DNA of 28,588 nucleotides from a virus. Made by a program: the position numbers and the translations under genes. This document shows, piece by piece, positions 14,862 to 20,564 of the stretch. The stretch is taken from the IMG/VR virus record IMGVR_UViG_3300031774_000105, positions 1 to 28,588 of that record; one strand, 5' to 3'. How positions within the stretch are numbered: the first letter of the stretch is position 1; each line of letters starts with the position of its first letter. Below the pieces are notes generated by a model. That model was not told the DNA's origin and did no database searches. It saw only the letters and a list, made by a program, of their open reading frames with translations.

Positions 14862-16672
14862 TGATTAGCTCCATAGACACCTGGATAAAATTTGGTTGTA
14901 AGTGATGGTGGTCTTTTACTTAAAATCTGATACCCAATGGATATTTCAAACAATCTCGGTGTAGCAGTTAAAGCATCCCAATCCCCATTATCGGGTACGG
15001 TATAGGTTAGGGATTTTATAAATCCAAATTGTCCTTTCTTACGAGTTCCGATATGTCCCATATAAAGTTCTGTGAATGGAGCTTTCATTCTGATTAAAGA
15101 ATTGTCATTTTCTTCTGACAAATACTCTGGATATGCTAAACTTGTCAATCTGTTTATCTTAGTGTACATAACATCAAATTCTTCGGCATTAGCAGGATAA
15201 ACCTTTAGATTAAATGATACATCTCTATCCCCTTTTTGATAAACATAAACATCTTCTGATCTACCGATGTATTGTGTTGGATTAAAAGTTGGATTTACAT
15301 TTTCTACTATACCCGTTACATATCCCCTAAAATAAATGTATTTACCATCTCTTAAATCTCGTATTTTTACATAAAAATCACCTTTTCCTACTGCAAAACT
15401 TTCTTTTGGAACATATGTATCATCAATATCATAATCACCCCAAAAATTATAATTATTAAAAAGTGATTCTTCAACTCCAAGTTGAGATATTTTGTCTTTA
15501 GAAGTATGTTTTTTGCCACCACCCAATCCTAAGTATTTAGGTGATTTAAATGTAGGCATATCAATATCATACCATCTTGTACCAAAAAAATCAAATGGTG
15601 CATCACCAAGATGATTAAATGGAAGAGCTGTAGCCGTTCTCTTTGAATATTCAAAAACAAAAGGTTTTCTAAAACTACCCAAAGCACCTGGCAAATCTCT
15701 AAATTTATTTGTAAAATTTAAAAATCCAGTATTACCCTGTACCGGATTAGGGAGTGCTGGTAATAATATCTTATTAATTGCATTTAAATCACCACCCGCT
15801 TTTATACCAAAAAGTATTGGAGCTGGGTTATTTGATGGTGCCGCTCCAATAAGTTGATTTGTTATATTTTCCTTTAATAAATTTAAAAGACCACTCGGTG
15901 AGCTTTGATAAGCAAGAACTCTAACAAAATCCTCAACGGCAGCACCTATTGGTAAGAGGTCTCTATTGAATAATACAGGATTGGTTGATTTTTTTGGTAT
16001 TGCTTTCATTATATATGGTTCTTTAAATTTTCCTAAAGAACCACCTCTGAATCTCGTCCCACTTTCCCTCACATCTAAATTCTTCGTTGATTGTCCTATG
16101 AAAACCTCACCTTTATCTGGTGTGCTTGAACCATGAGTTGGATCAAATATCTTATCCAATGTAAAACTACCAAATCCCAATTTATTATCCTTACCGATTA
16201 AAGCACCATCTACATATCTTTTACGGACATCGGAATCCAATCCTTCGAAATGAACAACCCCACCTCGTGTTTGAGCTTCCACACCCTTTTTATTTTCATG
16301 TCCAGAATATGTGAATGTTGTTTGTTCCTTTTCAGATGATATCAATATCTTGCTCAATGGAGCATCATCTTTTTGAGCCTTAATTGGAATTTCACTCAAT
16401 GGTTTATAAGTACCATCGGGTTGTAAAACTTGATTCAATGAGGTAAAATTACTACTATATGTTCCTGTGTAAACTCCTTGATAAACTGATCTACCGATAT
16501 CCTCTACTGGTAAACCATCGGTAGCACTATTGATATTAATCTCTGGATTATTTAGTTTGTTTGGAAATACATCATCATAAGAACTTTCAACTTGATCAGC
16601 CTTTACATCACTATATGTTTCCTTATTCTTAGATATATCACTAAAAGGTGAGCTTAAATTTTCTAATCCCAT
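14858..16672 (-). CDS. Baseplate tail tube cap protein, gp48-like
   Basis: Likely caps the hub and initiates tail tube polymerisation. The C-terminal 200 residues carry the recognisable part: YFRGYVTGIVENVNPTFNP, IGRSEDVYVYQKGDRDVSF, YTKINRLTSLAYPEYL and GFIKSLTYTVPDNGDWD, which match the pattern of gp48/gp54-type proteins whose fold is related to the tube protein. The first 380 residues are longer than in T4 gp48 (364 total) and contain glycine- and charge-rich segments with no recognised domain. It sits immediately downstream of the tape measure with a 1-base overlap and upstream of the LysM and hub genes, the expected position. It could alternatively be a fusion of gp54 and gp48 roles, as no separate gp54-like gene is visible here. 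Confidence 0.78.
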   Translation of the reverse strand: MGLENLSSPFSDISKNKETYSDVKADQVESSYDDVFPNKLNNPEININSATDGLPVEDIGRSVYQGVYTGTYSSNFTSLNQVLQPDGTYKPLSEIPIKAQKDDAPLSKILISSEKEQTTFTYSGHENKKGVEAQTRGGVVHFEGLDSDVRKRYVDGALIGKDNKLGFGSFTLDKIFDPTHGSSTPDKGEVFIGQSTKNLDVRESGTRFRGGSLGKFKEPYIMKAIPKKSTNPVLFNRDLLPIGAAVEDFVRVLAYQSSPSGLLNLLKENITNQLIGAAPSNNPAPILFGIKAGGDLNAINKILLPALPNPVQGNTGFLNFTNKFRDLPGALGSFRKPFVFEYSKRTATALPFNHLGDAPFDFFGTRWYDIDMPTFKSPKYLGLGGGKKHTSKDKISQLGVEESLFNNYNFWGDYDIDDTYVPKESFAVGKGDFYVKIRDLRDGKYIYFRGYVTGIVENVNPTFNPTQYIGRSEDVYVYQKGDRDVSFNLKVYPANAEEFDVMYTKINRLTSLAYPEYLSEENDNSLIRMKAPFTELYMGHIGTRKKGQFGFIKSLTYTVPDNGDWDALTATPRLFEISIGYQILSKRPPSLTTKFYPGVYGANQ

Positions 16673-18831
16673 TATGATAAACTCCCAAAACCAGCATCCC
16701 CACCAGAGATTGGTCTGTTATTTGTAACATAATGTATATCCTTACCTCGTGTAACACCTTGAACATTTACATTGATATTCCCACCATTTGCCCCTGGCGC
16801 TTGACCTGCTGGAAAGCTTTGAAAATCATTTACAGGTATTGGATTGGTTGTTGCCAATACGGAGTCTCGTGGATTTAATTGAAATGTTCCGGCAGGACCT
16901 GCCATATGAGTTATCCCACCAGGACCGGATTTAAAATCATTTACCTTTACCGCAGAAACACCACTAGCTATAGCCGCACCTATTGCTGCGATAGCACCTA
17001 TCGCTAAAGCAGGTCCTATAAAAGGTATACCAGCCACCGCAGCAGCTGCTGCTTTGATCGCAACTATACCGAGAGCAATTGCTAAACCACCAGCAATAAC
17101 TCCCATTATCTTCATAGCAATAACATTCTCTCTTAAAAATCCAGCAATACCTGAAAATGCTCCACCTATCGTTTCTAAAGCAGGACCCAAAGAGTTTAAT
17201 GCTTCAGCAGTCAATGCTTTAAAACCATTTATAAATTGTGTTAGTTGACTTATAGAATCTTTACCGAGTAAATCTGAAAAACTACCACCCTTTGATAATT
17301 CATCCGATAGACTATTAACCTCGTCTTGTTTTCCTACAAATTTTGCTAGTTCAGCGGTACTGACTCCGATTGATTTTGCCAATGATTGTCTCTGCAGAGC
17401 ATTTAGTTTATTGAACTCAGCTTCCGAACCCAATTGATCAACCACGGCTTTCATAGCACCCTCAATGTCATTATTAAGAGCAGCCTCTCTTGCTTTCTGT
17501 AAATTAATCTGTCTACCGATCATCACCGATGCTTCTTGTTCAGCTTTAATAGAAGATTCAAAATCTAACAATCCTTCGGCAATTTTAGCACTCGTGTCAA
17601 GACTCACACCCAATGCCCTTGCTTGAACGGCAGCCCTTGCTATATTATCCCCACCATCTTTTGTAAAGGTAGCAACTGCTTCCGTTGAAGAAGCAATATC
17701 TTTCATTACAGCAGTTGGAGCAACTCCAGCCGCCGCTGCCATTTGAAAAGTTCCTTCAGCAAGACTTTCAGCCTGTTCAGCCGAAAGATTTGCAGTTTCC
17801 ATTAGAACACCGAATAAATTAGCACCCTCTTGTGCTGATAATCCCAATGCTTTAGATGTGTCAAATACCTTAGAAGATAAATCAACAGCCTCATCTAATG
17901 ATAAACCAAATTCACTGGTTAAAGATTTGGTTATATCTATGGTGTCTTGCATTGAACCACCGAGAGCTATAGCATCCGTCCCAGCGTCTTTTACATTTTT
18001 CTTAAAGTCACCACTAAATACAACAAGACTACCAAATGCATTTCCAATATCATCTATTACAGAAGAAACTTGATTTATAATACTAGCCAAGGCACCAAAA
18101 GCAATAGTAGCTGTACCGATATTTTCAGAAAATTCCTGTTGTTTTTTAGCAATTTCTTCTTGATTTTTTTGGTTAGCGTCTCCTGATTGGCCCAATTCTA
18201 CTAAGCTAGTTGCTACATCACCGTCAATATCCAAACCTTTTAATTTTAATTTATTTACCAATTCTTGAGCGTCAGCTTCTCCATAGATTCCTTCTTGAAT
18301 ACCTTTGGTTAGATCCTGAATTTCCGCTTTTCCTTCAGCACCCCCTAATTCTGCTGCATTTGTATCTTTAATAACTTCTAGATTGTTTTTGGATTGCTTA
18401 GCTACTAGTATATCTTGCGCAAGACCTTGCTTACCTATTCGATTAGAAGCAATCTCTTCATAATTACCTTGTATGAGATTCCCAATCGTTGATGATAAGG
18501 ATTTTGATTTTTGTCTTTCAAGTTTTTCTAAAGCCTTATTAGCAGTTACAAGTGATTTTGTACTCTTGGTTTGTTCTTTAAAAGCAGCCTTCTGTTGTTG
18601 ATATTCTCTCTCCTTTTGATCTGCTGTCTTTTTGGCTTCTTGAGCCAGTTTTCTCTCTTCTTTTCTCTGTTCTTTATAATTGTCTAGTGTAATAGAAGAA
18701 GATTTAAGGTTTAACTCTCTCCATTTTGCGATATCAGCTTCTACTGCCTCCTGTTCCCTTATTTCAGCAGTTTTTTGAGCTTCTAATCGATTGATCTCTT
18801 TTAAGTTTTTTGGATCCCATCTATTAGCCAT
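16672..18831 (-). CDS. Tail tape measure protein (gp29-like role)
   Basis: Probable tape measure, setting tail length and later released ahead of DNA. The first 130 residues are strongly coiled coil and charged (KEQRKEERKLAQEAKKTAD). The middle is alanine-rich helical with repeated heptad-like patterns (250-520). Residues about 570-630 form a long hydrophobic, glycine/alanine-rich stretch (VIAGGLAIALGIVAIKAAAA, IPFIGPALAIGAIAAIGAAI), the membrane-active segment typical of tape measures. The C-terminus is glycine/asparagine-rich with GGNINVNVQGVTRG. At 719 residues and about 0.15 nm per residue the tail would be roughly 105-110 nm (inference). It follows the 72-residue gene with a TAATG overlap and precedes gp48, matching T4-type order. 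Confidence 0.85.
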   Translation of the reverse strand: MANRWDPKNLKEINRLEAQKTAEIREQEAVEADIAKWRELNLKSSSITLDNYKEQRKEERKLAQEAKKTADQKEREYQQQKAAFKEQTKSTKSLVTANKALEKLERQKSKSLSSTIGNLIQGNYEEIASNRIGKQGLAQDILVAKQSKNNLEVIKDTNAAELGGAEGKAEIQDLTKGIQEGIYGEADAQELVNKLKLKGLDIDGDVATSLVELGQSGDANQKNQEEIAKKQQEFSENIGTATIAFGALASIINQVSSVIDDIGNAFGSLVVFSGDFKKNVKDAGTDAIALGGSMQDTIDITKSLTSEFGLSLDEAVDLSSKVFDTSKALGLSAQEGANLFGVLMETANLSAEQAESLAEGTFQMAAAAGVAPTAVMKDIASSTEAVATFTKDGGDNIARAAVQARALGVSLDTSAKIAEGLLDFESSIKAEQEASVMIGRQINLQKAREAALNNDIEGAMKAVVDQLGSEAEFNKLNALQRQSLAKSIGVSTAELAKFVGKQDEVNSLSDELSKGGSFSDLLGKDSISQLTQFINGFKALTAEALNSLGPALETIGGAFSGIAGFLRENVIAMKIMGVIAGGLAIALGIVAIKAAAAAVAGIPFIGPALAIGAIAAIGAAIASGVSAVKVNDFKSGPGGITHMAGPAGTFQLNPRDSVLATTNPIPVNDFQSFPAGQAPGANGGNINVNVQGVTRGKDIHYVTNNRPISGGDAGFGSLS

Positions 18832-19049
18832 TACTTACCCTTCTTCTTAGCTAACATTCTTTTCAATCTATCTTCTGCGTTTTTAGCATTTCTAAGAATC
18901 AAATCTATATTTTTTTTAAATTCGGAATCGTTTTTATATAAATGTTTTTCAAGAGTAGTTAATTTTAAATCCCTTACATCTTTTGGTAATCTTTTAAATA
19001 GATCAAAAAACCCCTCTGATAATATATTTTTTCTATCCATATACGACAT
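18831..19049 (-). CDS. Small hypothetical protein (72 aa) before the tape measure
   Basis: Unknown function. It begins MSYMDRKNILSEGFFDLFKR and is otherwise a short, lysine-rich helical protein ending KRMLAKKKGK; the NILSEGFFD start occurs in small proteins of marine T4-like phages, as far as I recall. A clear AGGAG lies 9 bases before the ATG and an ATATTTAT element 24 bases before it. The stop overlaps the tape measure ATG (TAATG), so it is co-translated with it. The basic charge and position suggest a tail assembly accessory, perhaps tape-measure handling, but this is inference. Confidence 0.75.
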   Translation of the reverse strand: MSYMDRKNILSEGFFDLFKRLPKDVRDLKLTTLEKHLYKNDSEFKKNIDLILRNAKNAEDRLKRMLAKKKGK

Positions 19050-19089: not shown

Positions 19090-19347
19090 TTATTTCTTTG
19101 GATTAAATCGTCTTGGAATCTTAGACGATTGAGGTGCGTTTGCCTTATCTATTTGTTTCTTTTCCTTCTTTTTTAATTCCATGAATTCACGGAAATAGAA
19201 GTTTTTAAGATGTACAGGCATGTTATACACATCGGCAAAACTAAAACCAGGTGTGCCGTATATAAAATAAAATATGGATTGGTGTATTTCTTTCTTATCA
19301 GATGGTTTGAGGCCAAAAAAACTCGACTGAAAGCGGAATAGACACGC
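19090..19347 (-). CDS. gp51-like extension ORF, probably expressed by ribosomal frameshift
   Basis: An open frame not started by its own ATG. It runs from just after a stop at 19350-19348 to TAA at 19092-19090 and reads SSFFGLKPSDKKEIHQSIFY, then YGTPGFSFADVYNMPVHLK and NFYFREFMELKKKEKKQ, a lysine-rich end. The DVYNMPVHLKNFYF segment resembles the conserved core of T4-like baseplate hub assembly protein gp51. The only ATG lies inside that conserved core, and neither it nor the nearby GTG has a Shine-Dalgarno. The frame overlaps the end of the gp26-like gene and meets it at a run of seven T (plus positions 19315-19321). A +1 or -2 shift there would give a protein of 318 or 319 residues, of which 74 come from this frame after the slip site. 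Confidence 0.7.
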   Translation of the reverse strand, partial: ACLFRFQSSFFGLKPSDKKEIHQSIFYFIYGTPGFSFADVYNMPVHLKNFYFREFMELKKKEKKQIDKANAPQSSKIPRRFNPKK

Positions 19348-20047
19348 TCACAGTTTCACCTCCCATTTCGACTTCCGATGTCATATCAATATCGGGAGAA
19401 ACTTCATTAATGTAATTTCTCAATGCTACAGAATCACGAGCTAACATATTTTGTGAAAAACTCGTTATTGTTTCTTTTTTATTGTCCCCATCGACTTCAA
19501 TTATACTATGTCGTAATCTAGTGGTTATAGAAGTATCATATCCGAATTTAGCAGATTGTTCTATATCTTTATTCATCAATACTTCATCAGCACCCGTTAG
19601 AATTTTAAATTTTAAGTCATTTTTACCAACGGGTAGTTTAAAATCAAAGGAATTGTTGGTATAATCAACATCTTCCGATATATTTTTAAAAGGGCACTTA
19701 GATAAGTCAAATGTATGTTTAATTTTTTGATCTAAATCGTTTGGATTGACAATTTCCGTTGTATATTCAGGCCCATATGCTAAAATACGAGCCGCAACCA
19801 ATACAGCGTTTTTATCTCCAAGAATTAAGTCTTTTTGTGTAACTTTTGGTGTTACTATTAGAGAATCCAATAGTTTATCGATAACAACACCCTTTTTTAT
19901 AAGATTTTGGGACATCAAAATATCCTCTTCTCGTGTTGTCATGTATTTTAACTCTAATTTACCATCGGCAATTGGTGAATCCTTTGGATATACTTTTCCT
20001 TGAGACGGTAAATCAATAACTTCCGTAGGGAACTTATGTTCAGCCAT
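19298..20047 (-). CDS. Baseplate hub subunit / tail assembly protein, T4 gp26-type
   Basis: Belongs to the T4-type baseplate protein family: the N-terminus KFPTEVIDLPSQGKVYPKDS, then LKYMTTREEDILMSQNLIKK and VVIDKLLDSLIV are diagnostic. It is predicted to act in hub assembly or as a tail assembly chaperone. At 249 residues it is slightly longer than T4 gp26 (208). It has an AAGGAG Shine-Dalgarno 7 bases before the ATG. It lies directly after the tail tube gene, the position where many tailed phages encode chaperones expressed as short and frameshifted long forms. The last codons, GAG TTT TTT TGG, contain a T7 run just before tandem stops TGA TAA, and the gp51-like frame continues from that run. 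Confidence 0.85.
   Translation of the reverse strand: MAEHKFPTEVIDLPSQGKVYPKDSPIADGKLELKYMTTREEDILMSQNLIKKGVVIDKLLDSLIVTPKVTQKDLILGDKNAVLVAARILAYGPEYTTEIVNPNDLDQKIKHTFDLSKCPFKNISEDVDYTNNSFDFKLPVGKNDLKFKILTGADEVLMNKDIEQSAKFGYDTSITTRLRHSIIEVDGDNKKETITSFSQNMLARDSVALRNYINEVSPDIDMTSEVEMGGETVSVSIPLSVEFFWPQTI
19315..19321 (-). other. Candidate ribosomal frameshift (slippery) site, T7
   Basis: On the coding strand the gp26-like frame reads GAG TTT TTT TGG CCT and ends 12 bases after the TGG with TGA TAA. Phe-tRNA on TTT can re-pair after sliding +1 or -2 within the seven T, entering the frame TTT GGC CTC AAA that encodes the gp51-like segment. A -1 slip would not reach that frame. No downstream pseudoknot is obvious by eye. 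Confidence 0.55.
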
Positions 20048-20075: not shown

Positions 20076-20564
20076 TTAGAATTCAAGTATAGCGTAATCA
20101 AATGTTAGTGTTAAAGCGATTTCGACTGGATTTGAATCAGTAAAATCCATATCACCAAATGTAGCATCTTGAATCCATGTACCATAACATGTCCATTTTT
20201 CAATGATATCACCAACTGGTCCCAATACTTTGAAATTTATGTTCTTTTTATAAAAATCTTGATATCCATCTCTACCTGTAGCACTCTCATGATGTAGTCT
20301 TACCCACTCCATTACGGCTCCAGCAGCTGATGGCACAATAGGATCATACAAAGTAATATTCATATCTTGCCACTTACCCTTACCTTTTATATACTTTGTG
20401 ACATTCATATGTTCTAATTCCACTTTATCAAAAGTAATTTGTGGTCTTGCCGCTGTTTTGATTGTAAAAGCTGGTATACCTGCAATCTCCATAATAAATC
20501 GATTTTTTACCTTCGGTTCATACGGGGTGTAAAATATATCACTTGCTTCTAATAATTCTGCCAT
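20076..20564 (-). CDS. 19: Tail tube protein gp19
   Basis: Forms the inner tube of the contractile tail through which DNA passes. At 162 residues it is the same size as T4 gp19 (163). The sequence shows FIMEIAGIPAFTIKTAARPQ, the segment after it ending TKYIKGKGKWQDMNITLYDP, and the C-terminal GDMDFTDSNPVEIALTLTFDYA, all typical of gp19. An AGGAG Shine-Dalgarno lies 7 bases before the ATG, and an ATATTTAT element lies just upstream, suggesting its own strong transcript besides read-through from the sheath gene. It follows the sheath gene by 41 bases, in the T4-like order 18-19. Confidence 0.95.
   Translation of the reverse strand: MAELLEASDIFYTPYEPKVKNRFIMEIAGIPAFTIKTAARPQITFDKVELEHMNVTKYIKGKGKWQDMNITLYDPIVPSAAGAVMEWVRLHHESATGRDGYQDFYKKNINFKVLGPVGDIIEKWTCYGTWIQDATFGDMDFTDSNPVEIALTLTFDYAILEF

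Follow-up and report, generated by a model that had tools for sequence, protein, structure and literature searches.

The window analysed here is a single viral record of 28,588 nt (IMGVR_UViG_3300031774_000105), and all features described below were checked on its minus strand. Immediately downstream of a tail tube gene (20076..20564; phrog_4542, E 5e-32) lies a gp26-type open reading frame of 249 residues (19298..20047), which has its own ATG and the Shine-Dalgarno (SD) sequence AAGGAG and whose product is referred to as TAC-N. In the zero frame the 3' end of this gene reads GAG TTT TTT TGG CCT CAA ACC ATC TGA. It contains a run of exactly seven T (19315..19321), preceded immediately by a G (19322), and the run opens the conserved slip box TTTTTTTGGCCT (19310..19321); the stop codon TGA (19298..19300) follows five sense codons beyond the putative P-site codon. 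Between 19347 and a stop at 19092-19090 there is a second open frame, in a phase that equals +1 or −2, and the part of it behind the slip (TAC-C, 19090..19314) encodes 74 residues and the stop and is startless ahead of its conserved core. From the stop that bounds this frame upstream as far as the slip there is no ATG, GTG or TTG, and the earliest start-type codons, a GTG and an ATG, both fall within the conserved DVYNM core. A preliminary description, made from the sequence alone, had reported both frames and the lack of an ATG before the core, and its coordinates proved correct. The predicted long form TAC-NC (19090..20047) has 318 residues when read +1, with TGGC taken as one step. The statement that the second frame has no Shine-Dalgarno sequence holds in that no such sequence is positioned to serve the second ORF, but a strong SD-like sequence, GGGAGGTGA (19356..19364), ends 34 nt upstream of the T7 run and is a candidate stimulator. 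Downstream of the extension follow a 72-residue ORF with a good SD of its own (18831..19049), for which Pfam and PHROGs searches at E 0.01 gave no match, and the tape measure protein gene (16672..18831; phrog_58, E 1.4e-9). The putative chaperone locus is thus placed between the tail tube and tape measure genes, an order shared with Mel-JY01, immuto, SP-15 and LIS04.

Relatives were drawn from viral contigs, genome contigs and phage records, giving 221 sequences with the N part, the window included. Both parts are present in 212 of them, with the extension in the +1 phase in 211 and in the −1 phase in one (LR756511, or L039). The nine without an extension match comprise contigs that end early (L023, L032, L067, L158, L219) as well as L040, L220, L221 and L222; L040, L221 and L222 nonetheless have an open +1 frame after a similar box. 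The alignment of relatives that had been proposed as a check therefore bears out a conserved box followed by an out-of-frame extension. The box is exact in 164/221 sequences and, because several contigs had entered twice (e.g. L002 and L043), it was also counted by distinct context: with repeats removed, 138 of 184 distinct 120-nt contexts have TTTTTTTGGCCT exactly, and most of the others read TTT TTT TAC CCT or TTT CTT TGG CCT. L050 was dropped from the box count, its box not being findable and its N frame being broken by a stop. Phage isolates carry TTT CTT TGG (immuto), TTT TTT TGG (Mel-JY01), TTT TTT CAC (SP-15), TTT TTT AGT (LIS04) and TTC TTT CGT (GXN1), all with the same phase. RM378 has the same box, but matches the extension profile only at E 0.25; the profile of the +1 extension was built from 143 of 148 representatives of the +1 clade, the rest being cut or outside the length limits.

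Among the 148 representatives the second codon of the box is TTT in 140, CTT in seven and CTA in one, and never TTC, which makes up 21% of the Phe codons in the same genes. The three least variable of 107 synonymous columns are codon 1, codon 2 and CCT. The last serves both frames, coding for Pro in frame 0 and for Leu in the extension. Codons 1 and 2, by contrast, are read before the shift and in one frame only, so that their constancy is attributed to the shift itself. Past the slip the zero frame reaches its stop after a median of four codons, whereas the +1 frame stays open for a median of 73 and at least 61 (n=141); the zero-frame A-site codon is TGG in 122/148. These features suggest a real programmed frameshift in the T4 gp26 family, ordinary in kind and in the less common +1 direction, and the locus very probably encodes a PF12322-type tail assembly chaperone in a short and a frameshifted long form.

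The direction of the shift, which the preliminary description had given as +1 or −2, can be narrowed by the re-pairing of the P-site tRNA. With wobble allowed, this is possible at +1 in all 148 representatives, at −2 in 144 and for a tandem −1 shift in one; in LIS04 the +1 re-pairing works only with codon 1 as the P site. Immediately before the run, 134/148 have G or C and one has T, against 23% G/C at third positions overall, and a G or C at this place removes the −1 heptamer; the window itself, with G TTT TTT, does not have the X XXY YYZ pattern. A −2 shift, as in phage Mu, would yield the same chaperone pair in an identical phase, and in the window taken alone both +1 and −2 re-pair. Nevertheless, −2 fails where +1 works in L035 (TTT CTA TTC), L038 (TTC TTT CGT), L106 (TTC TTT TAC) and L221 (TTC TTT CAT). 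It also needs no T or C after codon 2, yet this base is T in 144 and C in three of the 148, as +1 re-pairing requires. We regard −2 as unlikely, and these patterns are best explained by a +1 shift on the second codon of S TTT YTT T. In the window the likely P-site codon is the second TTT (19318-19316), re-pairing one base forward on 19317-19315, and we infer the same direction for the window's own phage. Other +1 sites are CUU U in prfB and UUU CGU in influenza PA-X; CTT TGG of immuto re-pairs in the P site like prfB, and TTT CGT C of GXN1 resembles PA-X. The site of the +1 clade differs in having no stop codon in the A site and no SD sequence at 3 nt.

The extension might instead be translated on its own, from an internal or coupled start, as overlapping TAATG starts in the distant relatives Cygsa01 and K351, and the combination of a heptamer with an overlapping ATG in D527, YB07 and RHph_N34, would allow. 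Some in-frame ATG, GTG or TTG is found upstream of the slip in 77 of the 148 +1 representatives, but 71 have none of these three codons, as is the case in the window, the position of the start is not conserved, and in just 12 is a candidate preceded, at 4-14 nt, by an SD-like sequence. The independent start in relatives that had been named as grounds against a programmed shift is accordingly confined to Cygsa01 and K351, with none conserved in the +1 clade, and separate initiation is improbable. Still less probable is slippage of RNA polymerase on the T7 run, which would produce mixed mRNAs: the run is present in 164/221 sequences, but the same phase is kept with the broken runs TTTCTTT (8/214), TTCTTT (four) and TTTCTA (one). 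Homopolymers are prone to indel errors, but a sequencing error or a decayed frame is refuted by the run and phase held constant in 138 distinct contexts and in phage isolates, a common phase that therefore reflects neither indel error nor chance, and by the conservation of the extension as a protein, so that we give it practically no credence.

Besides the slip box, a programmed +1 shift may depend on an upstream element. In the +1 clade the energy of pairing with the anti-SD sequence peaks at two places ahead of the run, ~34 and ~23 nt away, where it falls below −6 kcal/mol in 40% and 48% of the representatives, respectively (background 1.8%). Of the K, E and Q codons at these peaks, 64-84% have G as their third base, vs 30% overall. 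When codons were synonymously reshuffled, in a test that covered 74 of the 148 representatives, the best pairing was −5.83 as against −8.68 in the real sequences, which were stronger in 63/74; in a control stretch they were stronger in 33/74, i.e. there was no effect. Judged by this comparison, the SD-like element 22-36 nt upstream is under synonymous selection and is not explained by amino acids alone. The stimulatory SD sequences of prfB and dnaX sit 3 nt and ~10 nt from their sites, so that the candidate element of the +1 clade is far from either spacing, and we know of no case in which an SD sequence stimulates shifting from 22-36 nt. No general trend towards RNA structure was seen downstream of the slip (mean z −0.64, 15% below −2, n=147). 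In L096 and other +1 relatives, G+C-rich third bases before the slip stand out in AT-rich genomes, where they form the SD-like double peak at −34 and −23.

The fold of the N part is consistent with a chaperone. A structure model of the window's N part (pLDDT 90.4) was compared over residues 1-93 with the PDB, where the best matches were 2ob9, the tail assembly chaperone of HK97, with Z 5.9 over 78 residues, and 3klu, YqbN, with Z 5.8 over 86 residues, both below Z 8 and hence no proof, followed by a third match at Z 2.1. Against viral models it matched gp26-type proteins, including that of SP-15. The N-terminal ~90 residues are therefore predicted to have a chaperone-like fold. In the model of T4 gp51 (pLDDT 82.9) a helical tail begins at residue 206; a Foldseek search of the PDB with this model gave no match under E 0.001, and among viral models it matched gp26/gp51 proteins. 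Searched by sequence among solved structures, the N profile and T4 gp26 and gp51 gave only chance and zinc-finger matches. Conservation, gene order and fold together give good support to the earlier proposal of a G/GT-like chaperone pair in a T4-type phage.

In the proposed mechanism, most ribosomes would read the gp26-type ORF through to its stop and make TAC-N. Some would slip +1 from UUU to UUU while tRNA-Phe occupies the P site at the second TTT, decode GGC in place of UGG and yield TAC-NC, whose 318 residues would include an additional helical tail. If assembly proceeds as with lambda G/GT, the tape measure protein would be coated by many copies of TAC-N and few of TAC-NC, and the extension would recruit tube subunits. 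We infer that the shift occurs, as well as its frequency and the role of its products in assembly. Lambda G/GT, P2 E/E' and HK97 gp13/14 resemble the window locus in gene position, in the pairing of a short with a long form and, as predicted, in a chaperone-like N fold; the shift in all three is −1, not the +1 predicted for the window locus. A 2016 review calls G/GT frameshifting general in long-tailed phages 'except T4', and describes the chaperone of the haloarchaeal myovirus HSTV-2 as very likely made by a +1 shift, the direction predicted here (PMC5009743). Phage 0305phi8-36 was suggested in 2007 to encode its chaperone in two genes, with no frameshift (PMC2147016).

A second group of gp26-type genes apparently shifts in the other direction. 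In the cyanophage S-RIM8 gp26 and its 80 relatives, T TTT TTC is followed by one sense codon and a stop in 81/81, and none of the 81 has a start in the −1 frame ahead of the slip; two of them have short extensions, of 15 and 42 residues. Across 76 distinct contexts the heptamer is invariant, with an SD-like GAGGG ~10 nt upstream. These Kyanoviridae-type genes, with gp26 and a short gp51 ORF, are like the window locus in having a homologous N part and a homologous startless extension; they differ in the predicted −1 shift at U UUU UUC and in the near GAGGG, whereas in the +1 clade a G/C precedes the run and the SD-like element is 22-36 nt ahead of it. T-run heptamers are also found in Aeromonas 65.2, SRB7757, Atu_ph07, HTVC008M and Ochrobactrum OC. 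YB07, RHph_N34 and D527 have both heptamer and overlapping ATG, Cygsa01 and K351 the overlapping ATG and no heptamer, and Vi01 neither clear heptamer nor ATG. In the Salmonella phage Vi01 record (L325), an unannotated −1-phase extension follows gp26 at ~2012-2190, with E 1.2e-6 to the −1 extension HMM. LR756511, the sole sequence related to the +1 clade that has a −1-phase extension, has it at T TTT TTC, which suggests a change of shift direction.

The relation to T4 runs through this −1 group. The window's own protein does not match PF12322 (T4_baseplate) at E 1, but 11 of 14 of its aligned relatives do, the best at 1.5e-28. Profile-profile comparison links the N parts of the +1 and −1 groups at 98.5% (E 1.6e-15), the −1 N part to gp26 at 99.5% and to gp51 at 97.6%, and gp26 to gp51 at 98.9%; direct links of the +1 group to T4 are weak (gp26 7.0%, gp51 28.4% over 41 columns). 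The +1 extension matches the −1 extension at 93.5% (at most 10.3 in 20 column shuffles), and the −1 extension matches gp51 residues 207-253 at 96.5% (shuffles at most 5.2). An HMM of the −1 extension, built without gp51, finds the C-termini of 13/13 gp51 proteins (E 1e-9 to 3e-4; L318, with a broken frame, was excluded from the C-terminal alignment) and has no match beside gp26. The description of the extension as gp51-like is thus partly right: the +1 extension appears to correspond only to the last ~47 residues of T4 gp51, and is tied to them because the −1 group bridges both, the direct match (0.4%) not being significant. As judged from these profiles, the whole of T4 gp51 is a second gp26-type protein with an extension-like tail in frame. 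T4 is therefore like the window in the family of its N parts and in the gp51 tail that is the extension's probable counterpart, but has two genes and no shift where the window has one gene and an out-of-frame extension. PF12322 is found twice in T4, in Klebsiella KP-21068 and in seven further T4-type genomes (one with gp51 in two pieces), two-copy genomes that have the extension in frame, as gp51, and once in the 16 other genomes examined, in which the extension frame adjoins the single copy, with a profile match of only E 0.25 in RM378; immuto and Mel-JY01 gave no PF12322 match. In KP-21068, gp51 and gp26 are adjacent on the same strand, and a phylogeny of 56 N parts groups gp26 with gp51 (99/95), beside Aeromonas 65.2 and D527 (84/83). 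Copy number, gene adjacency and tree grouping point to an origin of T4 gp26 and gp51 by duplication from a frameshifting ancestor. In L318 (~2330-2420), a T4-type gp51 is split into two ORFs at A5CCC, by sequencing error or a real break, and Klebsiella phage KPV15 likewise has two short 'baseplate proteins' among the viral models.

Taken together, the shift may have switched direction within one homologous chaperone family: −1 at U UUU UUC in T4-like phages and cyanophages, +1 at S TTT YTT T in a large clade with marine, Bacteroidota, cyanobacterial and Bacillota phages, and −1 once more in LR756511. In this history a T is barred before the +1 run, which keeps it from shifting −1, the distal SD-like element helps, and T4 later came to use a duplicated gene in place of the shift; we hold the chances for and against this history to be even. 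Parts of it have precedents: Vladimirov, Gautam and Davidson reportedly described T4 genes 26/51 as TAC-N/TAC-NC in 2022, with frameshifting in several T4-like groups, and in view of this work the T4 and −1 parts appear to be published and are not new. A later article lists that paper as its reference 76 (Virology 566:9-15; PMC12846349). Our literature search, in which most subscription papers were beyond reach, returned no +1 report for the gp26-type family, and the clade-wide +1 site, the barred −1 shift and the distal SD-like element may be new.

If this is correct, the annotation of the gp26-type 'baseplate hub' gene lacks the true long product in hundreds of phage genomes, the tail piece being overlooked or labelled a separate gp51. 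The family would also allow −1 and +1 recoding to be compared naturally within a single gene family under equal protein constraint, with the direction predicted to depend on which base precedes the run, which base follows codon 2 and how the SD is spaced. In cyanophages, the short ORF annotated 'gp51 / hub assembly catalyst' appears to correspond to the inner part of the −1 extension. The cyanophage and pelagiphage ORFs annotated as 'baseplate hub assembly catalyst' from an internal ATG (L225, 4732-4869; L320, 1953-2090) appear to be such inner parts of the extension.
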